From: Lentimicrobium sp.
GTDB taxonomy: Bacteria > Bacteroidota > Bacteroidia > Bacteroidales > Lentimicrobiaceae
DNA: 64,000 nucleotides
Direction of reading: 5' to 3'
Assembly (NCBI GenBank): GCA_019429275.1
Contig: JAHYJC010000003.1
Coordinates: 1 to 64,000 of the forward strand
Numbering within the stretch: position 1 is the stretch's first letter; the number at the start of each line of letters is the position of its first letter. The notes under the pieces were generated by a model, which ran no database searches, had not been told where the DNA came from, and saw only the letters and a list, made by a program, of their open reading frames with translations. A program made the position numbers and the translations under genes. This document shows, piece by piece, positions 238 to 54,077 of the stretch.

Positions 238-933
238 TCAGAGAAAAAAGATGACCACATAATAAATTCCGACTCCGATAAATAAAACAGCCACCACCCT
301 GCGAAACCAGAGTTCAAAGGTTTTTATTCTGTTGTAAGCCTGTGCCACATTGCCAACTGCATAAGCCAGCAGCCAGGCAAAAATGATAACAGGAAGACCT
401 GTAGCAATTGCAAATATCACCGGCAGGAACAGCCCTGTTGGACTGGCGATGGTAATGGGTATCAGCATTCCGAAGTAAAGCACGCCGCTGTATGGACAGA
501 AAGCAAGTGCGAATACAATTCCCAGAAGCAGTGTACTCCAGAATCCACGCCCTTTCCGGTTTTCCATGCGTTCAGCAAGATTGAATCCCGGAATATTAAT
601 CCGGATAAAATCCAGCATAAACAGGCCGATCAGAATAAGCACAGGCCCCAGCAGTTTTTCGCCCCAGCCCTGAAACAAACGGGTAACATCAAATTTACTG
701 GCACCGAAGAAAAGGATAACCCCGATGGCAGTGTATGAAATGGCACGTCCTAAAGTGTAAACCAATCCGCTGATAAATACCCGGTTACGGTTACTCAGGT
801 CGCGGCTGATAAATCCAATAGCAGAAATATTGGTTGCCAGCGGGCAGGGGCTGATGGCGGTCATCAGCCCGAGTATGAAGGCCGTAAGCGCTCCATAACT
901 TGAGTTTTCGAGAATGGTGTTGAAAAATTCCAT
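238..933 (-). CDS. arsG: ArsG-type organoarsenical efflux permease (CcdA/DsbD-like membrane protein)
   Basis: Polytopic inner-membrane protein of 231 residues with about six hydrophobic segments and the CcdA/DsbD-transmembrane layout. Two short cysteine motifs lie at helix starts: SPCPLATN near residue 30 and FCPYSG near 145. In the ArsG family, known from the Shewanella arsEFG operon, this permease exports trivalent aromatic aminoarsenicals. The assignment rests on context: ArsR, an ArsE-like thioredoxin and an ArsF-like lipoprotein lie directly upstream on the same strand. A general CcdA-type reductant conduit is the main alternative. A 299-bp spacer holding an inverted repeat separates it from arsF, so it may be transcribed less strongly than arsE and arsF. 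Confidence 0.75.
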   Translation of the reverse strand: MEFFNTILENSSYGALTAFILGLMTAISPCPLATNISAIGFISRDLSNRNRVFISGLVYTLGRAISYTAIGVILFFGASKFDVTRLFQGWGEKLLGPVLILIGLFMLDFIRINIPGFNLAERMENRKGRGFWSTLLLGIVFALAFCPYSGVLYFGMLIPITIASPTGLFLPVIFAIATGLPVIIFAWLLAYAVGNVAQAYNRIKTFELWFRRVVAVLFIGVGIYYVVIFFL

Positions 934-1232: not shown

Positions 1233-1652
1233 TTACTTCCCATCTATGGCTTTCTTCAATTCTGACTTAAGCTTATCAGGACTGCTTTTGGCGTACATAA
1301 AACCTTTGTCAGTCAGATCGGTTTGTTTTCCATCGTTCACAACTATCAGTGCCTGAGCAGCAACTTTGAGTCTGTTTGCAATAGCCTCACCATATTTTTC
1401 TTCAAGATTTACTGAAAGAAAAGTAATTTCACCACTTTTCATCTTATCTGCATACATTTCATTCAGTGCGTTTTTGGTAACGTCCTCAACAGCGTTGCAG
1501 GTCATACAACGGCGGGTGTAATGAAAGTAGTAAACCTCAATTTTCGCAGGTTTAACTGCAGTAGCATCATTTGCAGTTTCGCTACCAGAAGAGCTGCAGG
1601 CCATAAATGGCAGGCTGATTACAACCAGCATCAGAATCATTAGTTTTTTCAT
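1233..1652 (-). CDS. arsF: ArsF-like thioredoxin-fold lipoprotein
   Basis: A 139-residue lipoprotein with a signal peptide ending in lipobox FMAC (cysteine near residue 19). A thioredoxin-fold region follows with the redox motif RRCMTC near residues 48-53. ArsF-family proteins are described as a subunit of a nitrophenyl-compound reductase that, with ArsE, reduces nitroarsenicals before ArsG exports the product. The gene sits 19 bp downstream of arsE on the same strand, consistent with one operon. The redox role is supported by the motif; the substrate is inferred only from family and neighbours. Membrane anchoring would place the reducing site in the periplasm or facing it. Confidence 0.72.
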   Translation of the reverse strand: MKKLMILMLVVISLPFMACSSSGSETANDATAVKPAKIEVYYFHYTRRCMTCNAVEDVTKNALNEMYADKMKSGEITFLSVNLEEKYGEAIANRLKVAAQALIVVNDGKQTDLTDKGFMYAKSSPDKLKSELKKAIDGK

Positions 1653-1671: not shown

Positions 1672-1905
1672 TTAACCTAATAAGAGTTTTGCAATTTCAT
1701 CATTTGATGGAACACGGCCTTTCACCATCACTTTGCCATCTACCACAAGGGCAGGAGTTGACATTACGCCAAAGGCCATTATTTCCATTATATCTTCCAC
1801 CTTGGTGATGGTTGCACTAATGTTGTTTTTTTCAACAACCTCACGGGTGGCTTTTTCGAGGGTTTTACATTTCGGGCATCCGGGGCCCAGCACTTTAATT
1901 TCCAT
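1672..1905 (-). CDS. arsE: ArsE/MTH895-like small thioredoxin
   Basis: A 77-residue cytoplasmic thioredoxin-fold protein with active site GPGCPKCK at residues 7-14. The start at 1905 gives MEIKVLGPGC, the usual beginning of this short family. An upstream in-frame ATG at 1932 would add nine residues not typical of it. The family is the redox-active disulfide protein / ArsE group, and in arsEFG operons ArsE works with ArsF. It lies about 40 bp downstream of arsR. The first ten codons are also preserved as a stub near 7310-7339, showing that a second copy of this operon once existed. Confidence 0.78.
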   Translation of the reverse strand: MEIKVLGPGCPKCKTLEKATREVVEKNNISATITKVEDIMEIMAFGVMSTPALVVDGKVMVKGRVPSNDEIAKLLLG

Positions 1906-1944
1906 TGTTATTTGATTTGAGTTGTTTAGCATTGTATGATCTGA

Positions 1945-2250
1945 TCAATCTTCAAAAAATTTTCCGAACATGGCTTTTGCAATAGCCCAGTTCTCCCGGT
2001 TGATGCAGTATTTGATGTACGGTGGGTTGATTTCTCCCTGTATCAGGCCGGCTTTTTTCAGCTCATTCAGATGTTCTGAGAGGGTAGAGCGGGCTATGTC
2101 CAGATTTTCGTGCAGATCACCGCTGTAACAGCAGGTTTTGGTGTTATTGGCAATGTAATCCAGGATATAAACCCTTACCGGATGCGACAAAGCCTTGGCA
2201 ATACGGGCAATTTTATACTGTTCGTCTGTGTAAATTTTCACTTTTGTCAT
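1945..2250 (-). CDS. arsR: ArsR/SmtB-family transcriptional repressor
   Basis: About 101 residues with a winged helix-turn-helix region (HPVRVYILDYI, then STLSEHLNELKKAGLI). The vicinal cysteines in TKTCCYSGDL fit the metalloid-sensing helix of ArsR proteins, where thiols bind As(III) or Sb(III). An upstream in-frame ATG at 2283 would place translation inside the operator palindrome, so the start at 2250 (or 2256) is preferred. The gene heads the arsR-E-F-G cluster. A paralogue at 7379-7687 differs at only about six positions across roughly 96 aligned residues. Autorepression through the palindrome at 2263-2280 is likely. Confidence 0.88.
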   Translation of the reverse strand: MTKVKIYTDEQYKIARIAKALSHPVRVYILDYIANNTKTCCYSGDLHENLDIARSTLSEHLNELKKAGLIQGEINPPYIKYCINRENWAIAKAMFGKFFED

Positions 2251-2262
2251 AATCATTTCGCA

Positions 2263-2288
2263 TTTCGTCGAACGACGAAACAAAAGTA
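2263..2288 (-). promoter_or_regulatory. ArsR operator palindrome abutting a TAnnTTTG promoter box
   Basis: TTTCGTCG-AA-CGACGAAA is a perfect 8-bp inverted repeat at 2263-2280. On the minus strand it directly follows TACTTTTG (2288-2281), a perfect match to the Bacteroidota -7 box TAnnTTTG. The palindrome therefore covers the expected transcription start, an ideal ArsR-family operator position. No clear -33 box was found. A near-identical palindrome with a four-base spacer precedes arsR2. Confidence 0.75.
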
Positions 2289-2371
2289 TATCAACTTTTT
2301 GAGAAAAAGTAACTTTGGTGAGAAAAAAATGTGGAATAATTTATTGCTTGTTGAACGGCCTTTTACAAATT

Positions 2372-4006
2372 TCACCTGATCAACACAACATACCCCTTTT
2401 GTGTAAAGAGTTTTCCACTGGCATCATAGGGCGAATACAAAATTCTGTAAGCGTATATGCCGGAAGGTGCAGGTTTGGAAAGGTAATTGCCATCCCACTG
2501 ATAGCCGGGGGATCTGCCTTCAAAAACTTGTTCTCCCCAGCGGTTGTAAATCAGAAGACTTTGTATAAACATATTGGTTTGTACCGGGCCAAATGTGTCG
2601 TTGAGTCCATCGCCATTTGGGGTAAATGCATTCGGGAAGTCAATAACCGGCGGGCACACATCCACAAAAATTTCGTCACTTACCTCACCACAGTTGAAAT
2701 TGCTGCTTAATTTATAAATGCCTCTGCTGTCAACTGTGGTTTGCATGGTTGTGTCTCCGTTGCTCCAAAAGTAATTGGGCAGTTCGGTATTGGCTGAAAG
2801 CAAAATGGGATAATCTTTTCCGTTTTGGCAAAGGGTGGTGTCGTTGCCAAGTTTAATTATACCGGTTGGGATGGTATCAACCATAACTTTTACCGAGTCA
2901 AGCTGTGTGCCGCAGCGGTCAGTGGTTATAAGGTAGTAGGTTCCCCCAAGTGTAGTGCGAAATATCTGAGTAGTATCGCCATTGCTCCAGCGGTATTGCG
3001 CAAAGCCCGGTGGGGCGGAAATAGTTGCTGTATCACCCCTGCAGATAGTTTTCTCATTGGTAAGACTGAGCAGCGGAGTATCAAATGTTATAACAATTTC
3101 ATCGCTCAGGCTACCACAATCGCCAAGAGAACAGGTAAGTGTGTATTTTCCCTGATTGTAAACATCAATACTTTGGCTTGTTTGTCCGGTGCTCCACAGA
3201 TAGGAGTCATATCCATCGGGTGCATTAAGTCTGTAAGGCATTTCGTTGCGACAAAGTATTGTATCAACCCCAATCGCGGGGGCTTTAACTCCGGCAGGTG
3301 CTACGCTTACATCATCCAGAAAATAATGTACGACGGTGAAATGCGTCTGGCTCCAGCTTTCTTTTGTGGTTCTCTCTCTTGACATAAAATTGCCAATGGT
3401 AATATATCGCTCTCCTCCCTTGGCTTTATACAGATCACTTACCTTCATCCAGTTTATGCTATCGTTTAATATTTGTTTTGACCTGATCTGAGCTGGTAAT
3501 TCCAGTAATAATTCAGGGGGCAGCCAGGGAGGATAAGCAGGGATGGTGTCACTCAGGTAAGCGTCAACATTCATAATGGCTCCATTGGAACCGAACTCAG
3601 CAAGAACTAAATAGTATTCAACACAATAAACAGTATCCATTTGCAATAAATCATTGAACTCTCCTCTTAAATAACCTCTAAAATCACCAGCATCTTCGTA
3701 GTAATAAGCTATAAAACAAGTGTATCCGTTACCAGTTTTTGGATATTGAAACCCTAAAGTATTTCTTGGTACGGTATAAAATAATGCAGCATCATTTGCG
3801 CACATGTTTAAAAAAAATGTACCGGAATAAATAGAGTACCATTTTGGTAGATTTGTAAAACTCGATTGCATAGCACCGAAATTCACGGAATTGCAATCAT
3901 TTGTAAACTCTTCAAATGAAGGATTGTAAACCAGGTTTTGGGATATTACACAATTGGGGGAACTCCAAAGAATCAGCAATATAATGGAATACCAATGCAA
4001 TTTCAT
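2372..4006 (-). CDS. Secreted protein with type B (gliding-motility type) C-terminal sorting domain
   Basis: A 544-residue protein with an N-terminal signal peptide (cleavage near VISQN), then a NPSFEEF-type domain often found at the start of large secreted Bacteroidota proteins. Three similar Ig/PKD-like segments follow (for example YLWSTGQT, YRWSNGDT, YFWSNGDT). The last ~90 residues show the CHU_C/gliding-type signature: FPNAFTPNGDGLNDTFGP, IYNRWGEQVFE, WDG and GIYAYRI. This domain directs export through the type IX secretion system and surface attachment. The biological role of the cargo is unknown. It lies 63 bp downstream of another T9SS cargo gene but is separated from it by a strong terminator hairpin. 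Confidence 0.85.
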   Translation of the reverse strand: MKLHWYSIILLILWSSPNCVISQNLVYNPSFEEFTNDCNSVNFGAMQSSFTNLPKWYSIYSGTFFLNMCANDAALFYTVPRNTLGFQYPKTGNGYTCFIAYYYEDAGDFRGYLRGEFNDLLQMDTVYCVEYYLVLAEFGSNGAIMNVDAYLSDTIPAYPPWLPPELLLELPAQIRSKQILNDSINWMKVSDLYKAKGGERYITIGNFMSRERTTKESWSQTHFTVVHYFLDDVSVAPAGVKAPAIGVDTILCRNEMPYRLNAPDGYDSYLWSTGQTSQSIDVYNQGKYTLTCSLGDCGSLSDEIVITFDTPLLSLTNEKTICRGDTATISAPPGFAQYRWSNGDTTQIFRTTLGGTYYLITTDRCGTQLDSVKVMVDTIPTGIIKLGNDTTLCQNGKDYPILLSANTELPNYFWSNGDTTMQTTVDSRGIYKLSSNFNCGEVSDEIFVDVCPPVIDFPNAFTPNGDGLNDTFGPVQTNMFIQSLLIYNRWGEQVFEGRSPGYQWDGNYLSKPAPSGIYAYRILYSPYDASGKLFTQKGYVVLIR

Positions 4007-4027
4007 AATTGTAATTTTGGTTTAAAA

Positions 4028-4062
4028 GGGCACATCTGATTCAAAGTGAATCAGATGTGCCC
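4028..4062 (-). terminator. Perfect 16-bp hairpin terminator between the two T9SS-cargo genes
   Basis: GGGCACATCTGATTCA and its exact inverse flank a 3-nt loop (AAG). On the minus strand the stem is followed by a TTTTAAA tail (4027-4021). It sits after the stop codon of the 4070-6412 gene and before the next gene, as expected for a Rho-independent terminator. The following gene may therefore need its own promoter. Confidence 0.75.
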
Positions 4063-4069
4063 GATAATA

Positions 4070-6412
4070 CTAGAATTTGGAGATCAGCCCAGTTTTAATA
4101 CTTGTTGCTGATTTAACCCGATAAGAATAGATGCCACTTCGTAGTAGCGAGATATCAAAAGATTTTTCAAAAATACCCTTCTCTATTTTTGTATCTGGCA
4201 GAAGCAATAAAACCTGCCTGCCAGTCATATCCACAACATCAATCTGATAATTCTCTTCGGTAAGATTGTTAAATTGAACAGTTATCTGAGCGGATGCTGG
4301 ATTGGGGAAAACCAATAATTCTTCAGCCCAATTGTTGCCTGTTTCATTATTGGCTGTTGTCATTTTATTGCCTATTGAATTTACTTTCAGGTAACTCCAA
4401 TTGGTACTTGATCCACATTGGTTGCCAACAGTTATAGTTAATTTAAAAGTTTTGTTATACGATAACAACCCATTGGTGTAAGCGAAATAACCGGTCCATC
4501 CTGTATAGCTGCCGGTATTACAAGATGCAAATCCAGAATATTGGTCCCAAACAGTTGAATTGATACAATAATTGTTCAGGTTTTCATAAGTGAGGTTATT
4601 AACCCCATTTAAAGTGGTTGTTCTGTTATAGATTAATTTGTAAGGAGAGACTTGCTCAATCAAAACAGTCAAAAAAGTGATAGTACCGGTGCTATTATTT
4701 ATTCTGTATCCAATGGATGCACTTCCGCAAAGAACAGGCGAATTTATGTTCTGAGATGGGTCGTGGTAAATCTGGGGGTTATCCTTATTGTAAATTTCCA
4801 GATCAACTACTGGAGGTACCGGGACATACATGTTTACAACTTTTGATCTTGTGTTTATTGTACCACAAGCATCTTTAACAGAATAGGTAATCATAACCAG
4901 TCCGCCCTGACAGTTTCCCAGGTTTACCCCGCTTGAAGTCAATGTACGCAGATCGAGATTTGCCGTTGGAGTACCGTTCGTCCAGGCTCCGTGGTAGTTC
5001 ATTAATCCCGCACCGGTAATAAAGTTACATCCCCAATCAACAGCCTGAATGTCGAATTTGTATTGCACCGGAGTGCCGGATGAATACGATGCATTGAAAC
5101 TTAATGCACTATTCTGGCAATACTTGCCATATCCTCCTTCATCACAATTACCAATAGGAACACTTCCGTTAATGGTAAAATTTGAGATTAGAACCGCCGG
5201 AGTTCCATTAAAATAAGCATAATTTTCGCCATCAATTTGGTCGGGAAGAGTAAATACACCGTAGGTATATGATCCTGATTCTAAATATCGGGAATCAAAT
5301 CCTGCATTGACTGAAGTAAAGGTATTATTGCCCCAGTTAATACCAACCAGAGTTGTAGCTATCAAATTACCTTGCCCGTCATAAGTTGGAGAAATTCCGT
5401 AAATCCTGTTATTTTTAGCATACTCAAGTTGTGTATTTGTCAGATCAAATGTGCCGGTAGATATCAACGATTGTGACTGATTCGAAGTAAGAATCTCTGT
5501 TAATCCATTCTGCCCAGAAACGTAAAGTTTGGGATTTGTAGTGTACAGTGTGAATTCGATTCCTTTAGCACCAGGAATGGAATAACTTTGAAGACTTCCT
5601 GTTACAAAACTACCATCTGGTGAAATTCTGATTAAATTTACCTTCCCATTATAAGAAGACCATGCCAAATAATTGGTACCCCAAGAAAGCTCAGCTTCAT
5701 AGGTTTCAAAATTTAGAATATCAATCTGTAGTTCAGCAGCTGTCACAACAGGTATGCCAGCAGAAATTCCGGAACTGGTGATCTCACTTCTAACGACTTC
5801 GCCATTACCGACTGAAAACAGAAATCGCTTTTCTGTCGATCCACTTCCTGTAATCACTTTTGAAACAGCCATACCTGTATTGTCCCATCCTCCATGATTT
5901 GAAACCAAAAATGGAATGGGAAAAAGACCGGAGTAATATGGGCAACTGGCATAGACCCAACCATTATAAGTAACAACCGGTGCTGTACCTGAGCAGTTTA
6001 CTTTTACATACAAAACAGGAGAATACCCGATTGGGTTGTCCATACTGTAAATTACATAGAATTGACGACAGGTACCAGGTATAGGCACTATATTAATTTC
6101 GGGGTTTAAAATTGTATAAGCTTCATCGCAGGCACTCATATCATATCCGGGCAGCACACCCACACTTTGTCCGGTAGGGCCATAAATATTGTAATCGCGA
6201 ACATAAAACAATATGTTCCCATTATCATCATAAACCCCGTTAGCAACAGAGTAAGCACCACCAGGGCCTGGCAATGCAGTTGATGATAGGGTAGAAGTTG
6301 ACATGTTAAACTTTAAAGAAGGTGTGGTCCAGTATTTCATCTGTGCTTGTGTAATTGAAGCAGAGAACATTACTGCAAAGAAGAACGCAAAAAAGAATAG
6401 TTTATTTTTCAT
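4070..6412 (-). CDS. Large secreted protein with type A T9SS C-terminal sorting domain
   Basis: A 780-residue protein with a signal peptide (cleavage after ITQAQ). The central region is beta-rich and aromatic and resembles WD40-like or SprB-type surface proteins, but no firm domain is recognised. The final ~80 residues form a Por-type sorting domain: VFPNPASAQITVQF, then VVDMTGRQVL and LRSGIYSYRV. The protein is expected to be exported by the type IX system and anchored outside. Its upstream region (start codon through 7318) is duplicated upstream of the unrelated lipoprotein gene at 11818-12786, so both may share the same promoter and long leader. Function unknown. Confidence 0.82.
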   Translation of the reverse strand: MKNKLFFFAFFFAVMFSASITQAQMKYWTTPSLKFNMSTSTLSSTALPGPGGAYSVANGVYDDNGNILFYVRDYNIYGPTGQSVGVLPGYDMSACDEAYTILNPEINIVPIPGTCRQFYVIYSMDNPIGYSPVLYVKVNCSGTAPVVTYNGWVYASCPYYSGLFPIPFLVSNHGGWDNTGMAVSKVITGSGSTEKRFLFSVGNGEVVRSEITSSGISAGIPVVTAAELQIDILNFETYEAELSWGTNYLAWSSYNGKVNLIRISPDGSFVTGSLQSYSIPGAKGIEFTLYTTNPKLYVSGQNGLTEILTSNQSQSLISTGTFDLTNTQLEYAKNNRIYGISPTYDGQGNLIATTLVGINWGNNTFTSVNAGFDSRYLESGSYTYGVFTLPDQIDGENYAYFNGTPAVLISNFTINGSVPIGNCDEGGYGKYCQNSALSFNASYSSGTPVQYKFDIQAVDWGCNFITGAGLMNYHGAWTNGTPTANLDLRTLTSSGVNLGNCQGGLVMITYSVKDACGTINTRSKVVNMYVPVPPVVDLEIYNKDNPQIYHDPSQNINSPVLCGSASIGYRINNSTGTITFLTVLIEQVSPYKLIYNRTTTLNGVNNLTYENLNNYCINSTVWDQYSGFASCNTGSYTGWTGYFAYTNGLLSYNKTFKLTITVGNQCGSSTNWSYLKVNSIGNKMTTANNETGNNWAEELLVFPNPASAQITVQFNNLTEENYQIDVVDMTGRQVLLLLPDTKIEKGIFEKSFDISLLRSGIYSYRVKSATSIKTGLISKF

Positions 6413-6436
6413 AGTTTTAGTAATTTTGCGCTCGTT

Positions 6437-6505
6437 ACCGGTTGGCAGGGGAGTGGTTGCTTATCAGCTTCCTATGGCAAACGCAGCCAACTCCCCGTGG
6501 CCGGT
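6437..6505 (-). promoter_or_regulatory. Leader hairpin, copy 1
   Basis: ACCGGTTGGCAGGGGAG (6437-6453) is largely complementary to CTCCCCGTGGCCGGT (6491-6505). It would form a long imperfect stem about 25 nt before the start codon at 6412. In copy 2 (12811-12879) the stem arms are conserved while the loop has diverged strongly, a pattern expected for a structured RNA. A regulatory role for the leader is an inference. Confidence 0.5.
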
Positions 6506-6709
6506 AAAAAGCCGGTTAAAATTATTTAATTTGTCTGTGTTCCGGGGTGATGTTACAGCGGCATTTCCTGCCACAATGAGTTTTCCTCCTTTCTCAGTAA
6601 CTATGGTTTTTATGGTTTGCCGTACTACAACAGCCCGTTTTTTTTAAGCTTAAATTATATATTACCCTCTAATATTAAGTATTCAATCCTGATATTCCCG
6701 GGTTTGTTG

Positions 6710-6717
6710 CAAATATA
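6710..6717 (-). promoter_or_regulatory. Candidate promoter -7 box (TATATTTG), copy 1
   Basis: On the minus strand the sequence reads TATATTTGC, a perfect TAnnTTTG box. A T-rich stretch (GAGTTTTT) lies about 15-20 bp upstream, but no good TTTG -33 box is seen. It would give a leader of about 290 nt for the 4070-6412 gene. The identical box occurs at 13084-13091 in copy 2. Confidence 0.45.
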
Positions 6718-7037
6718 GCCTTATTAGTTTAAAAACTCAGATTGGGGAGAGAAAAAGCGTTATATTTAAGAATTTTAGAACAGTTCTAAATAAAAAAAAG
6801 CCAAAGATATTATTATGGGTATTATTTTCATATTAGATATATAAATGCTGCATGTTTTGAGGATAAATAATCAGTGTCATTATAATTCTGTTAATGAAGA
6901 AAAATCTTATTAAGAAACCTGGATTTCTCAGTCCCTTGAAACTCCGAAACCTATTCTTTAACTGAAGCAGGGTATATCAGCCGGGTCTTGTGCCCGTCCA
7001 TTAAAAACATTTTCTGATATGATTCAAATGGCTGGTG

Positions 7038-7313
7038 TCAGTCGTTCTTTGTGGCAGGAAGGTCGCTTGAGGGCTCGCTTTTTTTGATTCCGGTGTCGTT
7101 AGCCAGTTCATCAATGTTTGTTTTGCTCCAGATTTCAGTGTTCAGCAAATGGGCAACCCTGCTTATGATGTGAGATGCAACAGGCGCAGTGAGGAATATA
7201 AAAACAACAATCATCAGGCTGATGACTGATGTGTAGAAATCAGCAAAAAAGAATACTGCCGCTATCAGAAACAACAAAATGCCAAAAGCCGGGGCTTTGG
7301 TGGCTGCGTGCAT
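7038..7313 (-). pseudogene. Truncated mrpG (C-terminal 91 codons)
   Basis: Reads MHAATKAPAFG onward and corresponds to residues 35-125 of the intact MrpG at 13412-13789, with only a few substitutions. The first 34 codons, the first membrane segment and the rest of the mrp operon are missing. Immediately upstream (in minus-strand direction) is a stub of arsE joined through the shared sequence GCATCCGGG (7310-7318). Reading from the arsE stub runs out of frame with mrpG and stops within about 10 codons. The fragment is therefore not expected to give a useful product, although it remains open. Confidence 0.88.
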
Positions 7314-7339
7314 CCGGGGCCCAGTACTTTAATTTCCAT
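7310..7339 (-). pseudogene. arsE stub (first ~10 codons)
   Basis: The minus strand from 7339 reads MEIKVLGPGC, identical to the start of arsE at 1905, and then switches to mrpG sequence at the 9-bp junction GCATCCGGG. The switched frame gives TQPPKPR and soon terminates. It follows arsR2 at the same spacing as in the intact operon. This shows that a second arsR-arsE-(FG) copy was cut and joined to a duplicated mrp segment. Confidence 0.85.
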
Positions 7340-7378
7340 TGTAATTTGTTTTGTATTGTTTAAGAATTAGTGATCTGG

Positions 7379-7687
7379 TTAATCTTTAAAAAATTTTCCG
7401 AACATGGCTTTAGCAATAGCCCAGTTCTCCCGGTTGATGCAATATTTGATGTAGGGAGGATTGATCTCACCCTGAATCAGCCCGGCTTTTTTCAGTTCCT
7501 TCAGGTGTTCCGACAGGGTGGAGCGGACAATGTCCAGATTTTCATGCAGGTCGCCGCTATAGCAACAGGTTTTGGTATGATTGGCGATGTAATCAAGGAT
7601 GTAAACCCTCACGGGGTGCGACAGTGCCTTCTCTATTCCAGCTATTTTATACTGTTCGTCGGTGTAAATCTTTTCTTTGATCATCAT
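7379..7687 (-). CDS. ArsR-family repressor, second copy
   Basis: A 102-residue paralogue of the ArsR at 1945-2250, with the same winged-helix region and the cysteine motif TKTCCYSGDL. Substitutions are few (for example IARIAK to IAGIEK, NELKK to KELKK). The start at 7687 or 7684 lies just downstream of its own operator-like palindrome. Its former operon partners are lost, so it stands alone as an intact regulator gene. It could still act in trans on the arsR-E-F-G promoter, or could be a relic that has not yet decayed. Confidence 0.85.
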   Translation of the reverse strand: MMIKEKIYTDEQYKIAGIEKALSHPVRVYILDYIANHTKTCCYSGDLHENLDIVRSTLSEHLKELKKAGLIQGEINPPYIKYCINRENWAIAKAMFGKFFKD

Positions 7688-7695
7688 ATTTCACA

Positions 7696-7713
7696 TTTCG
7701 TCGAAAGACGAAA
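7696..7713 (-). promoter_or_regulatory. ArsR operator palindrome of arsR2
   Basis: TTTCGTC-GAAA-GACGAAA forms a 7-bp inverted repeat in the position equivalent to the operator of the first ars operon. Only the centre differs (GAAA against GAACG). Adjacent minus-strand sequence TAATTTTC resembles a weakened TAnnTTTG box. Confidence 0.65.
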
Positions 7714-7825
7714 CGAAAGAAAATTATCTTTTTGAAAAAAAGTAACTTTAGATGAGAAAAATTGTGGAATATTTTTATGTTGCTGAGTAGCTTAAATTCT
7801 ACATCACAATTTGCAATAAAGCCGC

Positions 7826-10222
7826 TTAAAATTTCCAGTTCCACCCCACATTCGGCATAAACGGGAAGAATGATCTCTGCATCAGCACAACACGCTCATA
7901 ACTGGTATTATCCGGCCCAAATACAGATATCGTTGAAAAATAATAGGAATTCGGATTGCGATTATTGTAAAGGTTGATCACACCCAGTGAAAATGTCCTG
8001 TGATATCTTTTCTTCTGTTTGTGAAAATTGAAACTTATGTCGAGCCTGTGGTAAGGTTTGGTTTTGAAAGCATTACGTTCAGAGTAAATGTACAATTCAT
8101 TCATATGGGTGTAATCTCCGGCTGTGACCGGCACATAGTATTTTGAAACCGGCAGGGTAAGCCGATATCCGGAGTTAAAAACCCATGCACACGAAAGATC
8201 TATATTATCGTCAATTTTGATCATAAGCGCGAGATTTATGGTGTGCCTTATGTCGAACTGATCAGGGAATAGTTTCCCTTGATTTACATCTTCAAATTTT
8301 CTGTCGCTTCGGGCAAGGGTATAACTTATCCATCCTGTGAGCTTACCCTGATTTTTTGCTGCCATAAATTCCGCACCATAAGCTCGTCCTGTTCCGTTGA
8401 TGGCAAAGAGATTCTCCCAATTCTCACGGCCTTCCCAAAGCGAAGCCCCGTCCTGAAGCATGGCCAGACGACTAAAGTGCTTGTAATACAATTCGCTGCT
8501 ATACACAATCTTACGCGGTGAAACAAATTCAATCCCGGTCGAAACCTGTTTCATTATTGACGGAGGCAGCTTGACGGTTGCAGGCAACAGGTATTCAACC
8601 GGCATTCCTATGCTGTTGTTGCCGGTGATGTGCATATTCTGGCTCATCACATCAAATGATACAAAACTGTTCAGGTTTTTGTTGTGATGAAAACTTGCTT
8701 TTAACCTGGGTTCCGGTATTATGTAAAACCGGTTTTCGATGGCAAAAGTGTTGAGTCGCCCACCCAATTCCAGCGTGTGACCTGCCGGTCGGGTTATTTT
8801 TCCACCGGCATAAATTATGCCTTCAAAAGCTTCCATCAACATTGTGTGGTTGTGACCAGATTGCAAAGCGTTGTTGCCGCCCGATGTCTCGTAGGTATAA
8901 TCATTTGGCTTAAAATACCTGTAGGTGAGCTGTGTTCCGCCAAATATGCTGGTTGCAGGTGTTATGTAATATTCCATTTCCGATTTCAGACTGTATTCAC
9001 CGATTGTCGAAAGCAGGGTGTTTTTTGCAATATATTTATCTTCATTACTTGTATTTTCCGAAATTAAATTGTTCTTAACCCGGTATTTCGAAAAATGCAG
9101 GGTGGTATTGCTGAATACCCGGCTGTTGAAGAGATGGTTCCAGCGAAGGGCAGCCATTGTATTGCCCCATTGGTTTGTTTGCATGTAATAATCTGTTCCG
9201 TCGTCTTTTTTTTCTTTGAAGCCGGCAAGTGTTTTGTCGTCTCCTGTGTAAAAGCTCAGATGGATTTTGTTTTTGGCATCAATAATTTTGTTCAGTTTAA
9301 TGTTAAGATCGTAAAAATTGTACCCCACCGTTGAGCCGGGATTGACTTTTTGGGCCAAAGGTCTCGCGATCAGGTCGAAATAAAACCGCCTGAAGCTGAT
9401 CAGGTAAGAAGCTTTGTTTTTTTGAATCGGACCATTCACGGTAAATCTGGCAGAAACCAATCCCAGACTTACATTACCACCGGTTTTCGAAAGATTTCCG
9501 TCGGCCATATTCACATCAAGCACCGACGAAAGCCTGCCCCCGTATTTTGAAGGAAATCCACCTTTTATAAGCGTTGAACTTTTGATGGCATCGGTGTTAA
9601 AGGCTGAAATAAAACCTCCGAGATGGTTAATGTTATAAAGTGGAACATCATCAAGCATAACTAGGTTCTGATCGGGTGAACCGCCCCGCACATGAAGCCC
9701 CGTAGTGCCTTCATGGCCTTGCTGAACACCGGGTGTAAGCTGGTAAACCTTTATCAGGTCGGTTTCACCCCCCAGCGCAGGAAGTGATTTAATTACCTGG
9801 GCAGTTAGCCGGTGCATGCCAGGCGACGAAGTAATTCCTGCATTATTTCCCGAAATGATTTCAACCTGTTTAAGCTCTACGCCGGCCTTTAACCGGATAT
9901 TTACCAAAGTATCTTTTATCAGATTATTCAACAGCAAAGTGTCGCTGAGGTAGCCAACATAAGTAATTACAAGCACCACGGGTGCACATTGTGGCAACCC
10001 CGGGGTAATGCTGAAAAAGCCATAACCATTGCTGCTTGTGCCTTTGGCTGTATTGGCCTCGTAAATACCGGCATACAATAACCTTTCACCACTTTTTGAA
10101 TCCGAGACAAATCCGCTGATGGTTTGCCCTGAAACACCTTTTTGAATCAGCAAAATCATTATGAAACCCAGCAAAACGAGGTTGCGGGAAACTGAATATC
10201 GGTTTATTTTATTTGAATTCAT
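7826..10222 (-). CDS. TonB-dependent outer-membrane receptor
   Basis: A 798-residue outer-membrane receptor. A signal peptide is followed by a carboxypeptidase-regulatory-like domain (ISGFVSDSKSGERLLYAGIY, residues ~34-120). The plug domain comes next (LPALGGETDLIKVYQLTPGV, GGSPDQNLVMLDDVPLYN), then a beta-barrel ending in an aromatic residue (WNWKF). It imports a ligand too large or scarce for porins, using TonB energy. Its start overlaps the stop of the DUF4249 lipoprotein gene by 14 bp, so the two are translationally coupled. TonB receptor/DUF4249 pairs are common in Bacteroidota and resemble SusC/SusD pairs functionally. The substrate cannot be told from sequence. Confidence 0.9.
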   Translation of the reverse strand: MNSNKINRYSVSRNLVLLGFIMILLIQKGVSGQTISGFVSDSKSGERLLYAGIYEANTAKGTSSNGYGFFSITPGLPQCAPVVLVITYVGYLSDTLLLNNLIKDTLVNIRLKAGVELKQVEIISGNNAGITSSPGMHRLTAQVIKSLPALGGETDLIKVYQLTPGVQQGHEGTTGLHVRGGSPDQNLVMLDDVPLYNINHLGGFISAFNTDAIKSSTLIKGGFPSKYGGRLSSVLDVNMADGNLSKTGGNVSLGLVSARFTVNGPIQKNKASYLISFRRFYFDLIARPLAQKVNPGSTVGYNFYDLNIKLNKIIDAKNKIHLSFYTGDDKTLAGFKEKKDDGTDYYMQTNQWGNTMAALRWNHLFNSRVFSNTTLHFSKYRVKNNLISENTSNEDKYIAKNTLLSTIGEYSLKSEMEYYITPATSIFGGTQLTYRYFKPNDYTYETSGGNNALQSGHNHTMLMEAFEGIIYAGGKITRPAGHTLELGGRLNTFAIENRFYIIPEPRLKASFHHNKNLNSFVSFDVMSQNMHITGNNSIGMPVEYLLPATVKLPPSIMKQVSTGIEFVSPRKIVYSSELYYKHFSRLAMLQDGASLWEGRENWENLFAINGTGRAYGAEFMAAKNQGKLTGWISYTLARSDRKFEDVNQGKLFPDQFDIRHTINLALMIKIDDNIDLSCAWVFNSGYRLTLPVSKYYVPVTAGDYTHMNELYIYSERNAFKTKPYHRLDISFNFHKQKKRYHRTFSLGVINLYNNRNPNSYYFSTISVFGPDNTSYERVVLMQRSFFPFMPNVGWNWKF

Positions 10223-11105
10223 AAACTACAGTATCGCGGGTGGATGTAAAAAGTGAGAATAATCCGGCACCATTTTCTATGTTGCCATCGATTGAAACCG
10301 GTAAAGTCATGCCCTGCCAGATACCGCCCTGATTATACATGAATTTATAAAGTGTTTTATAATAAAGGTAATGCTCGCGGGTAACACTTCTAAGCTCCGA
10401 AACCACAATCACTTTTTGCAGAGATTCAGTGAAAAAGTAGAGGAAATAGTACAATGGTATGCTTACCTGTGATCCATTGAACATGGCATCGCTGAAAAGC
10501 ATGGTTGTGGGTTCGTACTGCATAATGTCCTCACTTACCATGATGGGATCAAACGACCTGAAATAATGGTAACCATAGCTGGTGGACGAATCATCCACAA
10601 TTTGTGTGACAGTAAGACTAAATTCGTAATAATTGGTTTCGTCGGAAGGGTCGTCGAAACTCAATTGAACCCTTGAAAAATAAACATCATCAATAAGAAG
10701 AGCCGATGGTGTAATTTCAATGTTGTGGGCAATGATGCTTTTGGGTATTACTGTTTGTGCAAAGGTGTGTTTATTGTCTGTGCCGGTTACCCGAAGAAAA
10801 ATGGTGTCGCCGGGTTGAGCTGATAAACCATCTGCAATAAATCTTTTTCCGTTATACCTCAGCGGGGTTTGGTTCCCGTTATGAATAACAAAAGCTTCGG
10901 CGGTTGAATCGCAGCCGCTATATCGGGTTGTGTCGTAAATATGCCGTGTTCGGGCAATATATAGCTGCAGGGTATCATTATGCGATTGGCTGGTAAAGGC
11001 AACGGTAGTTGTTTCCGCCTGGGGAATGTCCATATCAACCGGTGTTTCACAGGAAGTAAACAAAAGGACAAAAATTGCAATTAATAAGTGTATTGTTTTT
11101 TGCAT
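10209..11105 (-). CDS. DUF4249-type lipoprotein partner of the TonB receptor
   Basis: A 298-residue predicted lipoprotein: a hydrophobic leader ends in lipobox FTSC (cysteine ~19), followed by a beta-rich domain. The pattern AETTTVAFTSQSHNDTLQL and downstream location of a TonB receptor match DUF4249 proteins. These are surface or periplasmic lipoproteins always paired with such receptors. It is the first gene of the two-gene unit and overlaps the receptor gene by 14 bp. Role in ligand capture is inferred from pairing only. Confidence 0.78.
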   Translation of the reverse strand: MQKTIHLLIAIFVLLFTSCETPVDMDIPQAETTTVAFTSQSHNDTLQLYIARTRHIYDTTRYSGCDSTAEAFVIHNGNQTPLRYNGKRFIADGLSAQPGDTIFLRVTGTDNKHTFAQTVIPKSIIAHNIEITPSALLIDDVYFSRVQLSFDDPSDETNYYEFSLTVTQIVDDSSTSYGYHYFRSFDPIMVSEDIMQYEPTTMLFSDAMFNGSQVSIPLYYFLYFFTESLQKVIVVSELRSVTREHYLYYKTLYKFMYNQGGIWQGMTLPVSIDGNIENGAGLFSLFTSTRDTVVYEFK

Positions 11106-11117
11106 AAAAAGAAGAAA

Positions 11118-11146
11118 AGCACCCCGATTGAAAATGGCGGGGTGCT
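11118..11146 (-). terminator. Rho-independent terminator downstream of the 11156-11758 gene
   Basis: AGCACCCCG (11118-11126) pairs with CGGGGTGCT (11138-11146) around an 11-nt loop. On the minus strand the stem is followed by TTTTCTTCTTTTT. It falls 9 bp past the stop codon of the upstream gene and just before the DUF4249 gene. Confidence 0.8.
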
Positions 11147-11155
11147 GATTACAAT

Positions 11156-11758
11156 TTACTTAAAATGGTAGTTAAGTTTGTAGGTAGGTGCAAAATGATA
11201 TCCTTCAAACCAAATATCGGGTGAGTATTTAACCATCAGATCAAGCGTTACCTTTTTTTTGTAGAGGTTGATGCCCATTCCGGCAGAGGTGAACCAGCCT
11301 GGTTTAGGTTTTTTCAACTCTTCAATTACATCTGGTGGATAATTATTAATTCCGGGAAAATCAAAACTAATAAACCGATAATAACCCCCAAGCTCAGTTA
11401 TTATAGAAACATTCTTTTTGCTGAAGAAAATGTATCTACCCAAAATCCCCGGTTTAAATTCGAAATAGTACTCGCTATTTGCTTTATTCTTCGAATTATA
11501 AAACGACAAATCCACAGCCAGAAACAAATTTTTCGGCACTTCAATTCCATACCTTATGGCGTATACCTTAATCTTGGACTTTCCGGGATAATAGCTGGTT
11601 TGCCATAACCTGTCAAGGGAATTGATGTAGGGGTTAAATTGTATTCCAACAAATTGACTGTTTTCATTTAAGATTTTTGCAAAAATGTTTTGGGCATGAA
11701 CATTTTGTTGGTTCAAAAGAAAAGGAAGAAAAATAATAAAATAACCGAAGATTTTCAT
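11156..11758 (-). CDS. Secreted protein, probably a small outer-membrane beta-barrel
   Basis: A 200-residue protein with a clear signal peptide (cleavage near VHAQN). It has alternating hydrophobic/aromatic strands (YAIRYGIEVPKNLFLAVDL, GRYIFFSK, ITELGGYYRFI) and a C-terminal YKLNYHFK, all typical of small Bacteroidota outer-membrane barrels. No named family is recognised. It lies 59 bp downstream of the 322-residue lipoprotein gene on the same strand and is followed by a terminator. The two may be a bicistronic unit driven from the duplicated leader. Confidence 0.6.
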   Translation of the reverse strand: MKIFGYFIIFLPFLLNQQNVHAQNIFAKILNENSQFVGIQFNPYINSLDRLWQTSYYPGKSKIKVYAIRYGIEVPKNLFLAVDLSFYNSKNKANSEYYFEFKPGILGRYIFFSKKNVSIITELGGYYRFISFDFPGINNYPPDVIEELKKPKPGWFTSAGMGINLYKKKVTLDLMVKYSPDIWFEGYHFAPTYKLNYHFK

Positions 11759-11817
11759 TTAATTAAGTTTGGGTAAATAATTGTTTGTGTGTGCTATACA
11801 CAAGTTTCTTCACTTTG

Positions 11818-12786
11818 TTAATCAGCAAACAACTGGTTGTCGATTATTTGGGCTATATTGCCATATCTCTGTCCATAATGAGTAACTAGACATGAACTAT
11901 TAGGTGTTGAAATAGGTAAGACTGCCCCATCAACTAAAGTACGTCTAAAGTTGTCATGATCTAATTTTCGATCATAAGTCGGAGGAATAGAAATTGGAGT
12001 GGATAACTGACCAAGCCATTCCATTCGATAATATCCTTCTTTGCTACTTTGTATCAATTCGGGAATTTTTGCGTAAACCCAAGCTCCAGTCCAATTTTTT
12101 TGTTGAGATGTGGTTCTTGCATCATAATTGTTATTGCCATCCCATCCATGGTATAGCCTTGCAACTATCCTTCTATCTGACCATCCTGGGAAATATACAG
12201 TTCTATAACTAATTTGCTCATCTTTTAAGGTTGATAGTTGCGGATTAACTTCACATTTTATTTTAGTGTCAGTTGACGCCAATAGCGAATTAATTAACAC
12301 TGTGAATTTTACCTCGTCTTTTGTAGAAAACACAGCTTTTTCTGTTAATCTAAACAATGTGCTTTTAATCTTATAAACCCCATGTTTATCAGATAAATAG
12401 CTTTTTAAAGAGGACATAGGCATCTCCCAAAATTCCGAGTTGTCTTCAAGAATAATTTTTTTAAAACAATCGGGATTTTTTGTCCTATAATTATCAAATT
12501 CAACAGGGTCGGTAATTCTCATTCCTTTGTCGTAAACTTCTGAGAATGATTCAAACCCTAAATTTTTGTTAAATTGGTAAATAATTTCAGGATTTGTTTC
12601 ATTTTGCCTTATCCAGTTAATATGATCATTAAAGGTTGCAGAATCTTTAAATACCAAATATCCGTTTTTTAACTGGATATCGGTGTTTTCTGATTCGTTT
12701 TGGGTCGTTTCGATGTCTTTCTTACAGCCAGCAAGTGTAAAAGCAATCAGGATTAGCGCGAAAATTGATTTTTTCATTGTGTTCAT
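11818..12786 (-). CDS. Lipoprotein of unknown function
   Basis: A 322-residue lipoprotein with lipobox LAGC (cysteine ~21 from the ATG at 12786; an ATG three codons on is also possible). After the anchor comes NGYLVFKDSATFNDHINWI, a pattern seen at the start of many Bacteroidota lipoproteins of unknown role. The middle resembles a secreted surface domain with basic and aromatic stretches (VARLYHGWDGNNNYDARTTS). No catalytic motif was found. Its upstream region, including the leader hairpin, is the second copy of that preceding the T9SS cargo gene at 4070-6412. Confidence 0.65.
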   Translation of the reverse strand: MNTMKKSIFALILIAFTLAGCKKDIETTQNESENTDIQLKNGYLVFKDSATFNDHINWIRQNETNPEIIYQFNKNLGFESFSEVYDKGMRITDPVEFDNYRTKNPDCFKKIILEDNSEFWEMPMSSLKSYLSDKHGVYKIKSTLFRLTEKAVFSTKDEVKFTVLINSLLASTDTKIKCEVNPQLSTLKDEQISYRTVYFPGWSDRRIVARLYHGWDGNNNYDARTTSQQKNWTGAWVYAKIPELIQSSKEGYYRMEWLGQLSTPISIPPTYDRKLDHDNFRRTLVDGAVLPISTPNSSCLVTHYGQRYGNIAQIIDNQLFAD

Positions 12787-12810
12787 AGTTTTCGTAATTT
12801 TGCGCTCATT

Positions 12811-12879
12811 ACCGGTTGGCAGGGGAGCGGTTGCCGGTTAGCTTGTCAGAGTAAGGGCAGCCAACTCCCCGTAGCCGGT
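12811..12879 (-). promoter_or_regulatory. Leader hairpin, copy 2
   Basis: The arms ACCGGTTGGCAGGGGAG (12811-12827) and CTCCCCGTAGCCGGT (12865-12879) match those of copy 1 except for one base, while the intervening 37 nt differ at many positions. It lies 25 nt before the start of the lipoprotein gene. Confidence 0.5.
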
Positions 12880-13083
12880 AATAAGCCGGTTAAAATTATT
12901 TAATTTGTCTGTGTTCCGAGGTGATTTTACAGCAGCATTTCCTGCCACAATGTGGCTTCCTCCTTTCTAAGTATCTATGGTTTTATTGGTTTGCCGTAAT
13001 ACAACAGCCCGTTTTTTTTAAGCTTAAATTATATATTACCCTCTAATATTAAGTATTCAATCCTGATATTCCCGGGTTTGTTG

Positions 13084-13091
13084 CAAATATA
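13084..13091 (-). promoter_or_regulatory. Candidate promoter -7 box (TATATTTG), copy 2
   Basis: Identical to the box at 6710-6717, with identical flanks. It predicts a leader of about 300 nt for the lipoprotein gene. Confidence 0.45.
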
Positions 13092-13411
13092 GCCTTATTA
13101 GTTTAAAAACTCAGATTGGGGAGAGAAAAAGCGTTATATTTAAGAATTTTAGAACAGTTCTAAATAAAAAAAAGCCAAAGATATTATTATGGGTATTATT
13201 TTCATATTAGATATATAAATGCTGCATGTTTTGAGGATAAATAATCAGTGTCATTATAATTCTGTTAATGAAGAAAAATCTTATTAAGAAACCTGGATTT
13301 CTCAGTCCCTTGAAACTCCGAAACCTATTCTTTAACTGAAGCAGGGTATATCAGCCGGGTCTTGTGCCCGTCCATTAAAAACATTTTCTGATATGATTCA
13401 AATGGCTGGTG

Positions 13412-13789
13412 TCAGTCGTTCATTGTGGCAGGAAGGTCGCTTGAGGGCACGCTTTTATTGATTCCGGTGTCGTTAGCCAGTTCATCAATTTTTGTTTTGC
13501 TCCAGATTTCAGTATTCAGCAAATGGGCAACCCTGCTTATAATGTGAGAGGCTACCGGGGCGGTCAGGAATATAAAAACAACAATCATCAGGCTGATGAC
13601 TGATGTGTAGAAATCAGCAAAAAAGAACACTGCGGCAATCAGAAACAACAAAATGCCAAAAGCCGGCGCTTTGGTGGCTGCGTGCATCCGGGTATAAACA
13701 TCAGGAAAACGGATTACACCGACAGCCGCAAGCAATGAAAAAAATGCTCCGGCAAGTACAAAAATGGCTACTATAAGGTTGTTAATCAT
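13412..13789 (-). CDS. mrpG: Mrp antiporter subunit G
   Basis: A 125-residue protein with three hydrophobic segments and the MrpG/MnhG hallmark GVIRFPDVYTRMHAATKAPAFG near residues 24-45. It is one of the small subunits of the hetero-oligomeric Na+(K+)/H+ antiporter in the inner membrane. It overlaps mrpF by 8 bp and ends the operon. The C-terminal tail is polar (ELANDTGINKS...). A partial second copy is at 7038-7313. Confidence 0.93.
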   Translation of the reverse strand: MINNLIVAIFVLAGAFFSLLAAVGVIRFPDVYTRMHAATKAPAFGILLFLIAAVFFFADFYTSVISLMIVVFIFLTAPVASHIISRVAHLLNTEIWSKTKIDELANDTGINKSVPSSDLPATMND

Positions 13790-14069
13790 AGTATTTCTTT
13801 TTCAGATAGGTTGCATAGGCAACTGTGCCAATAAAAATAACCAAAGCTACAATGGCAGCAATGTCAAGGTAACGAACCTGGCCTGTGTATATGGCAAATA
13901 CAACGGTAAAGCCTATGGAAAGTGAAGCAATCAGATCGAGGGCTACAATGCGGTCGGGCAATGAAGGCCCTTTGGCCAACCGGTAAAGTGCCAGCAACAT
14001 GGCCGCCGAAAGCATGGTAAGTGCAGTAATTGAAACCCAATCAGGTAAAACAGAGTAATCGGTCATCAT
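13782..14069 (-). CDS. mrpF: Mrp antiporter subunit F
   Basis: A 95-residue protein with three membrane segments and the MrpF motif KGPSLPDRIVALDLIA near residues 28-44, continuing to YLDIAAIVALVIFIGTVAYA. It overlaps mrpE by 4 bp and mrpG by 8 bp, indicating translational coupling. MrpF is needed for assembly of the antiporter complex and has been linked to bile-salt or cation efflux in other bacteria. Confidence 0.93.
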   Translation of the reverse strand: MMTDYSVLPDWVSITALTMLSAAMLLALYRLAKGPSLPDRIVALDLIASLSIGFTVVFAIYTGQVRYLDIAAIVALVIFIGTVAYATYLKKKYYD

Positions 14070-50482: not shown

Positions 50483-50572
50483 GGAGAGATGCCAGAGTGG
50501 TCGATCGGGGCGGTCTCGAAAACCGTTGTACCCTCGCGGGTACCAAGGGTTCGAATCCCTTTCTCTCCGCCA
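50483..50572 (+). tRNA. tRNA-Ser (anticodon CGA)
   Basis: A 90-nt class II tRNA. The acceptor stem pairs GGAGAGA (50483-50489) with TCTCTCC (50562-50568), followed by discriminator G and an encoded CCA (50570-50572). The anticodon loop CTCGAAA gives CGA, reading UCG. The long variable arm (TTGTACCCTCGCGGGTACC) and T-loop GGGTTCGAATCCC fit serine tRNA. Confidence 0.96.
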
Positions 50573-50583
50573 GACAATCAAGG

Positions 50584-50607
50584 TGCCCCGCCCTGGCGGG
50601 GCATTTT
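50584..50607 (+). terminator. Terminator of the tRNA-Ser gene
   Basis: TGCCCCGCC and GGCGGGGCA pair around a 2-nt centre, followed by TTTT. The hairpin is 12 bp downstream of the tRNA CCA end. Confidence 0.85.
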
Positions 50608-50970
50608 AATTTTGGGCAGGCCGTAAGTCAAACTTGTTTGATCTTTCGGCCTGCCCAAAATTAAAACATCAGCAGCAAGCTGATGCCTTGCTTGTCTGTA
50701 GCCTCCCCCTTCAGGGATCGCCGGCGGCAATCCCGATAAATCGGAACTTGTTTGATTTTTCGGCCTGCCCAAAATTAAAACATCAGCAGCAAGCTGATGC
50801 CTTGCTTGTCTGCAGCCTCCCCCTTCAGGGATCGCCGGCGGCAATCCCGATAAATCGGAACTTGTTTGATTTTTCGGCCTGCCCAAAATTAAAACATCAG
50901 CAGCAAGCTGATGCCTTGATTGTCTGCAGCCTCCTCATTTTGGGATCACCAAAAGGTAGTCCGTTTAAAT
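50607..50970. repeat. 114-bp tandem repeat downstream of tRNA-Ser
   Basis: Copies start at about 50631, 50745 and 50859, marked by AACTTGTTTGAT (exact period 114). The third copy diverges at its end (about 50925-50970). Each unit contains an internal palindrome CATCAGCAGCAAGCTGATG, a CCCGATAAATCGG palindrome and TTCGGCCTGCCCAAAATTAA. The block starts with an inverse copy of the last segment (AATTTTGGGCAGGCCG, from 50607), giving a perfect 16-bp inverted repeat with the first CGGCCTGCCCAAAATT. The first two units are nearly identical. The open frame reading through them on the minus strand encodes the same repeats and is not a gene. From 50971 to 51097 nothing is seen. Confidence 0.9.
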
Positions 50971-52513: not shown

Positions 52514-52743
52514 TGCCTTGAAATTGAGAATATAAAAGTAGATAAAATCTGTGAAAAAGCGCAATAACCGTACCAACAAAGCTTTAAAAAATGTTAAACC
52601 CGGGCTGGTAAAATAAATGAATTGTTTTTTTTGCCAATCCAGAGACTTTGGGAATAAAGAGCCAAATAGTAACAATTTTTTTTAAAATCTTAAGATAACA
52701 CCTGCTTGATCAGAATTGGCCGCAGATTTAACTTTTACTGCCT

Positions 52744-52945
52744 GCGTCAGGAGACGCGTGCTGGTTATTTTAGATTATGCGTCAGGTTCTATTGCCCGCG
52801 TCAGGCTTGCCCTCTTTGGAAAATTGAGATTGTTTCTTATTGCCACCAGGCTGACACGTGTTAGTCGGTAAGCGACAGCCGGCACACGTCAGCCGGCACG
52901 CGTCTCCCGACGCCACTCAAATGTTGTTTGCACGCGTCTCCCGAG
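52744..52945. repeat. REP palindromes downstream of the RAYT gene
   Basis: The element GCGTC-AGGA-GACGC with flank GTGCTGG is at 52744-52764. An inverse GCGTC-TCCC-GACGC is at 52900-52913, a partial GCGTCTCCCGAGGC follows at about 52935, and partial relatives (GCGTCAGG) lie between. Such short palindromes near a RAYT gene are its REP targets. No gene is seen in 52676-52963. Confidence 0.8.
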
Positions 52946-52963
52946 GCAGGCCTAACTACCGAC

Positions 52964-53533: not shown

Positions 53534-53612
53534 AGGGTGCAAGTTAATAATAATTTTATTTTGAAAAGAATCAAAGGAATAAATCCGGATATTAAGATTG
53601 GTTTTGATGTCT

Positions 53613-53980: not shown

Positions 53981-54077
53981 TTTGGGATATGCGTCAGGCT
54001 TGCCCTCCCGCCCTGGCGGGGGTGGAGATGCGTGCTGGTTGATTTCGGTGTAGGCATAACGGGAAGTTGCCCGAAAC

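Follow-up and report, generated by a model that had tools for sequence, protein, structure and literature searches.

A two-unit mrp-ars block in Lentimicrobium sp., joined at 9 bp and carrying unrelated modules of exported-looking proteins behind a conserved hairpin leader

The window, that is, the whole 64-kb stretch of Lentimicrobium sp. DNA that was analyzed, carries on its minus strand a block that reads, in order, mrpG, leader, module A, arsR2, the start of arsE joined to the 3' part of mrpG (mrpG'), leader, module B, arsR1, arsE, arsF and arsG (Table 1). Modules A and B gave no DNA match to each other at an E value of 1e-5, and the best protein match of any A-B pair had an E value of 0.19. 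The pair of proteins encoded by module B are, as judged from their sorting domains, predicted T9SS cargo proteins. In terms of repeats, the block runs repeat 1, A, repeat 2, then repeat 1, B, repeat 2, followed by the remainder of arsE, arsF and arsG. Outside the block, a hexanucleotide array (AGGTTG, 27 copies) occupies positions 1-164 at the start of the contig and adjoins arsG. Further along the window, a tRNA-Ser (cga) is followed by a 114-bp tandem repeat of 2.7 copies (50483-50934), and a transposase-like ORF (52964-53764), presumably of the REP-associated Y1 type, is accompanied by short direct repeats, of which two pairs lie at its ends or close to them (52738-53998). Additionally, a 153-bp tandem repeat of 5.8 copies, with a GC-rich palindrome within the unit, was found at 56152-57070, where no ORF of at least 180 aa is present.

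Table 1. Positions in the window of the genes, repeats, leaders and nonamer copies of the two-unit block
Feature	Position	Strand	Basis
Intact mrpG (antiporter subunit G)	13412-13789	-	NCBIfam TIGR01300 and NF009314 above cut-off
Nonamer copy within intact mrpG	13684-13692	-	Sequence search and alignment
Repeat 1, copy a: from within intact mrpG to the ATG of module A	12782-13692	-	Ungapped alignment
94-nt hairpin leader before module A	12798-12891	-	Covariance model matches, fold z -4.5
Module A as a whole	7826-12786	-	ORFs and domain searches; block also in G012, G013, G017 and G015
Module A gene 1, lipoprotein-like protein	11818-12786	-	ORFs and domain searches
Module A gene 2, 200-aa protein	11156-11758	-	ORFs and domain searches
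Module A gene 3, DUF4249 protein	10209-11105	-	ORFs and domain searches
Module A gene 4, TonB-dependent receptor	7826-10222	-	ORFs and domain searches
Repeat 2, copy a: arsR2, its upstream region and arsE start	7307-7775	-	83.9% to 1873-2342, over 471 alignment columns
arsR2, open 102-aa ArsR-type regulator	7379-7687	-	Pfam HTH_5 and HTH_20 above cut-off; NCBIfam HTH_metalloreg below cut-off
Nonamer at the join (arsE start/mrpG 3' part)	7310-7318	-	Sequence search and alignment
mrpG 3' part (mrpG'): 91 open codons from an internal ATG within the nonamer; without the first 34 residues	7038-7313	-	ORF list and codon comparison
Repeat 1, copy b: from the mrpG 3' part through the intergenic tract and hairpin leader to the ATG of module B	6408-7318	-	95.2% identical to 12782-13692 over 911 ungapped bp
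422-bp stretch identical to 13000-13421	6626-7047	-	Difference list
94-nt hairpin leader before module B	6424-6517	-	Covariance model matches, fold z -3.1
Module B as a whole	2372-6412	-	ORFs and domain searches; block also in G018 and G005
Module B gene 1, T9SS type A sorting-domain protein	4070-6412	-	ORFs and domain searches
Module B gene 2, T9SS type B sorting-domain protein	2372-4006	-	ORFs and domain searches
Repeat 2, copy b: region of arsR1 plus the first part of intact arsE	1873-2342	-	Alignment to copy a
arsR1, from ATG (start in ORF list: TTG, 2283)	1945-2250	-	ORF list, domain search
Intact arsE	1672-1932	-	TIGR00412 MTH895/ArsE family above cut-off
Nonamer copy within intact arsE	1876-1884	-	Sequence search and alignment
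Intact arsF	1233-1652	-	NF040494 above cut-off
Intact arsG	238-933	-	NF040495 above cut-off

The join between the two units lies in the nonamer CCCGGATGC (minus strand), which occurs three times in the 64-kb window and nowhere else on either strand. Base-by-base alignment showed that the homology around position 7310 flips from arsE to mrpG across this nonamer: the match to arsR1 and arsE extends down to it, and the match to mrpG begins with it. The bases flanking the nonamer in arsE and mrpG are unlike on both sides, so that the shared sequence is exactly 9 bp. When positions separated by 3 kb or more in this part of the window were joined at random, at least 9 shared bases were found in 23 out of 230,647 joins, or about 1 in 10,000, and two of these 23 sit inside the long repeat itself. 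The identity is thus short, placed exactly at the switch and longer than expected by chance, as in a microhomology join. A match spanning the junction was found in one of 60 genomes, namely the source genome itself. Furthermore, the nonamer is absent from all 11 other mrpG rows (10 distinct) and from the arsE of the five relatives whose aligned arsE start covers the site, which indicates that the join arose in this lineage.

These results confirm the junction as a feature of the assembly as described. An earlier note on this DNA, made from the sequence alone, had placed the nonamer at the three positions listed in Table 1, all of which proved exact, and had proposed a microhomology-mediated join with both parent sequences surviving; this agrees with the 9-bp switch in our alignment and with the parents being intact outside it. 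Its description of arsR2 as complete with its operator was borne out as well, since the 102-aa frame is open and is preceded by a palindrome resembling that of arsR1. What we would not retain is the view of a truncated second ars operon whose arsE, arsF and arsG were destroyed: a single join, with its ends in mrpG and arsE, would account for the junction without any loss, and arsEFG need never have belonged to the copied unit. Indeed, nothing had to be destroyed, as the outer ends of the block carry mrpG, arsE, arsF and arsG in intact form. The 911-bp repeat, the different genes in the two units and the unequal divergence on either side of the join were not part of that note.

As read from its sequence, the block is laid out like a head-to-tail duplication whose end points fall in mrpG and arsE and whose units are joined at 9 bp. 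The units are direct and head-to-tail, and a novel junction links the end of one to the start of the other while both parents are intact at the outer sides. In a plain tandem duplication, the units would also be alike along their full length and equally diverged throughout. Here, the modules are dissimilar, and the copies have diverged unevenly. The two copies of repeat 1 differ at 44 sites over 911 ungapped bp, and in each of them the match extends no further than the start codon of the gene that follows, because each module stands behind a 94-nt hairpin leader. There are 16 differences in the first 281 bp, none in the next 412 and 28 in the last 218. For the intergenic 412 bp, the matches listed from a search of 60 genomes comprised only a stretch of the leader end shared with G002 and G006 and a weak 54-bp stretch in G034. 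The block is therefore not a plain duplication, its modules being unrelated and its copies unevenly diverged.

The unevenness is most marked in the coding sequences. The synonymous divergence (dS) was 0.22 between mrpG and mrpG' and 1.24 between arsR1 and arsR2, and the two pairs differ in their synonymous counts (Fisher P = 4e-6). To G013, the closest relative at the mrp and ars genes, dS was 0.70 for both mrpG and arsR1, 2.72 (saturated) for arsR2 and 1.79 for arsG. Because dS to this relative differs gene by gene, it is a poor clock here. The 16 codons that differ between mrpG and mrpG' comprise 12 synonymous and 4 non-synonymous ones, compared to 23% synonymous for random change (P = 1e-5). 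With G013 as the outgroup, which leaves 8 of the 16 differences unplaced, four synonymous and no non-synonymous changes were placed on mrpG', and three synonymous and one non-synonymous on intact mrpG; with L023 as the outgroup, six synonymous and no non-synonymous changes fell on mrpG'. The truncated mrpG' thus seems to have belonged to a working gene while it diverged. The mrpG tree contained one row from each of eight of the nine genus relatives with a match, plus three other loci (one identical to G006). The arsR tree, built from 10 of the 17 relatives with a match (those below about 67% identity were left out), leans to a grouping of arsR1 with G013 (65/55), and the sisterhood of arsR1 and arsR2 was not rejected (AU P = 0.27). 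Among the site patterns, 10 unite arsR1 with G013, 4 unite arsR1 with arsR2 and 2 unite arsR2 with G013. Since the tree does not reject the two arsR copies as sisters, a greater age of arsR2 would rest on its high, saturating dS and on these few site patterns. In addition, 34 arsR sites are private to arsR2, which could also reflect fast change.

One relative provides a picture of the locus in its single-copy state. On contig C46 of G013, the mrp operon is followed by arsR, arsE, arsF and arsG, with about 4.4 kb of other genes separating mrpG from arsR; mrp and ars are each present once and are collinear with the window. Among the matches listed for this genome, one close arsR lies near mrpG, and the next arsR-like match on that contig is 46 kb further on and 43% identical. 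In G001, mrp and ars are 164 kb apart; in G005, G014, G015, G017 and G018 they are found on different contigs.

Besides the blocks listed in Table 1, module A is partly present in G007, and module B is broken in G002. In the four A blocks of relatives, the first two genes are the most variable, with 46 to 61% and 34 to 54% amino acid identity to the window, and the last two are the least variable, with 80 to 88% and 79 to 96% (two of the receptors are cut by the end of the relative's sequence that was compared). A distant counterpart of module A was also found on contig C78 of G005, with 28, 20 and 33% identity for three genes. G005 and G015 have 2,185 bp of upstream sequence in common at 91.9% identity, which we take by eye to hold ssb and an HMG-CoA lyase-like gene, and this is followed by B in G005 and by A in G015. 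The leader of B in G005 and that of A in G017 are 96.8% identical over 403 bp, up to the start codon, and the leaders of G017 and G015 are 98% identical over 304 bp. G017 is contiguous into module A, but its sequence starts 448 bp before the ATG. In G015, the link from leader to module A crosses an NN gap inside the hairpin (L174:3843-3844), and the closely alike G017 has the full hairpin. A hairpin deletion with a pseudogene in G015 was rejected, as the apparent 113-bp loss spans this assembly gap. Two relatives thus seem, one of them across an assembly gap, to carry different modules, A versus B, at one site. Separately, a 118-bp piece of a gene that looks kinase-like by eye lies upstream of module B in G018 and is repeated just downstream of that module at 91.5% (L170:568-685 and 5288-5405), and transposase-like remnants, IS4-like by eye, lie between the two module B genes of G005 (L169:7321-8387).

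The element that stands before both modules was then followed with covariance models. At an E value of 1e-5, the final count was 17 copies, one of them cut at a contig end (the first alignment contained 9), and these belong to three Bacteroidales families: 9 copies in 7 of the 19 genomes of the source genus, the other 12 genomes giving no covariance model match; 6 copies in a second family, where 5 of the 16 genomes had the hairpin; and 2 copies in the single genome searched of a third. Under strict filters, with 10 to 14 candidates scored per genome, the hairpin was present in 3 of 295 genomes drawn from the order, including the source genome, and in 1 of 395 drawn from the class, which was the source genome itself. 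In all 17 copies, the 94-nt stretch ends 10 to 12 nt before an ATG. By eye and without a predictor, 11 of the proteins that follow have lipoprotein-type starts and 6 have signal-peptide-type starts, two of the 17 being cut by contig or locus ends.

The hairpin also varies as a structured RNA would. Over 16 distinct rows, 96% of the cells pair and 12 of the 27 pairs are changed on both sides, a count that is favored by the relatedness of the rows and by an alignment fitted to the model. None of 500 shuffles scored as high, and slid structures reached at most 6, so that the compensatory changes exceed both controls. Six of the 17 copies were folded singly, with z scores of -3.1 to -4.5. As the hairpin comes close to being a palindrome, six copies also gave weak matches on the reverse strand. 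The possibility that a short reading frame crosses the hairpin was considered and dropped after the letters were read by eye. At the Rfam gathering score, the window gave a tRNA only and nine loci of relatives gave no match; with E values of up to 5, positions 5900-13900 gave three weak matches, none of them overlapping the hairpins. Neither an exact match to the hairpin pattern among viral contigs nor a plasmid match to 248 bp of the leader was found, and the literature searched, with a limited library and set of terms, yielded no paper describing this leader. The hairpin directly before each ATG is most likely a cis-acting mRNA element. It resembles cis-acting leader RNAs (Rfam 15), which also show a conserved hairpin with compensatory changes immediately before start codons. 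It differs from them in having no family match and in that its 17 copies precede exported-looking proteins in three Bacteroidales families.

Upstream of the hairpin, at a distance of 76 to 111 nt, the motif AAGGAG or AAGGGAG was found in 14 of the 17 copies, or 14 of the 16 that have upstream sequence, whereas 1,000 letter shuffles gave 0.3 on average and never more than 2 (many of the copies being related). This motif resembles an extended Shine-Dalgarno sequence yet lies far from the main start codon. It is odd here, since ribosomes of this class are reported, in the available part of PMC9976891, not to recognize Shine-Dalgarno sequences. Still further upstream, runs of 8 to 12 C were seen in 7 of 11 leaders examined (G013, G012, both of G005, G018 and both of G233; L166-L170 and L182), and the length of these runs could vary. 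The two leaders of the window have C runs of at most 4.

Taken together, these data make it reasonably probable that the two-unit block arose by illegitimate recombination at 9 bp, through which two diverged alleles of a single locus became linked. One unit, at its end within arsE, would have been joined to the start of another, within mrpG, to give mrpG-leader-A-arsR2/mrpG'-leader-B-arsR1-arsEFG. The two units would represent diverged alleles, with A or B behind one and the same leader, rather than one unit copied in place, and we infer that these alleles were brought together by the entry of DNA from a related lineage into the cell. Three observations lead us to favor such a joining, and the order of events that it implies: the modules of the two units differ, in relatives the two modules seem to be alternatives behind a single leader, and mrpG' shows the pattern of a working gene. 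The joining of alleles would by itself not explain the 422-bp identity, which needs a later conversion or a recent exchange. Once formed, the block could be resolved in either direction. Homologous recombination between the two copies of repeat 1 would remove 6,374 bp and leave B, and recombination between the two copies of repeat 2 would remove about 5,434 bp and leave A.

The main rival, which we regard as unlikely, is a tandem duplication in place at the 9-bp repeats, after which recombination at the leader would have replaced one module and gene conversion would have acted between the copies of repeat 1. It predicts an identical layout and breakpoint, it draws on the occurrence of A and of B, in relatives, behind the same leader, and it fits the 412 identical intergenic bp with diverged flanks, which resemble a conversion tract, as well as the unrejected sisterhood of arsR1 and arsR2. 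However, it requires these further exchanges, and it sits poorly with an arsR pair whose synonymous divergence is about five times that of the mrpG pair and with a branch leading to mrpG' on which no amino acid change could be placed.

It is more improbable still that the block is a chimera made in assembly, by fusion of two strains that carry A or B at the mrp-ars site. A wrong join is conceivable because the 422-bp identical tract, an exact repeat present in both units, is a spot where short-read assemblies can err; the genome consists of 108 contigs, the working-gene pattern of mrpG' would suit the gene of another strain, and the G015 assembly has its NN gap inside the equivalent hairpin. 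The join, however, lies in coding sequence, away from both the hairpin and the 422-bp tract, and there is no N anywhere in the window. Moreover, assembly programs usually work with words longer than 9 bp, and the overlap at the join is below that length. The scenario of the earlier note, in which a deletion removed arsEFG from a complete second ars operon and linked what was left to a copied mrpG, we rejected as highly improbable: arsR2 is indeed more diverged than the rest of the block, but an extra mrpG and a whole extra ars operon would be needed where a single join already gives the repeat order, and G013 shows one close arsR near mrpG among the matches listed.

The join at 9 bp can be set beside known cases of short-homology rearrangement. 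According to the accessible text of PMC11111574, GC-rich borders of 9 bp directed selected tandem duplications in Escherichia coli, and earlier work is cited there in which microhomology was not required. In the part of PMC3411829 that was available, five of eight tested duplications were verified, the exceptions being those with 7 bp and 9 bp and one with 17 bp, and the deduced cut-off was 11 bp; by that account, 9 bp would be at the low end for such joins. Like the bacterial tandem duplications in the accessible portions of these two sources, the block has head-to-tail units, a novel join at a short GC-rich repeat and intact outer copies, but unlike them, its units carry different genes and its repeat pairs are unequally diverged. 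A second likeness is to Borrelia vls, Mycoplasma agalactiae Vpma and Anaplasma Msp2, which, in the portions of their descriptions available, also combine alternative surface or secreted proteins with repeats that permit exchange. In contrast to these systems, the window has whole unrelated multi-gene modules, each with its own leader; no silent copies were seen, and the A/B differences are known between species only.

More tentatively, and with more doubt than for the joining itself, we propose that the 94-nt hairpin has two roles, as a new cis-acting leader RNA that precedes exported proteins in Bacteroidales and as a seam for the exchange of whole surface-protein modules. Species would swap A and B behind one leader, and the block would be an intermediate caught before its collapse to either. 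The junction is a well-preserved natural example of 9-bp joining, and in several species unrelated modules of exported-looking proteins have in common a conserved, covarying hairpin before the start codon. If confirmed, these features would make the hairpin a candidate new leader RNA of Bacteroidales and the site a concrete locus for measuring how surface-protein genes are exchanged.
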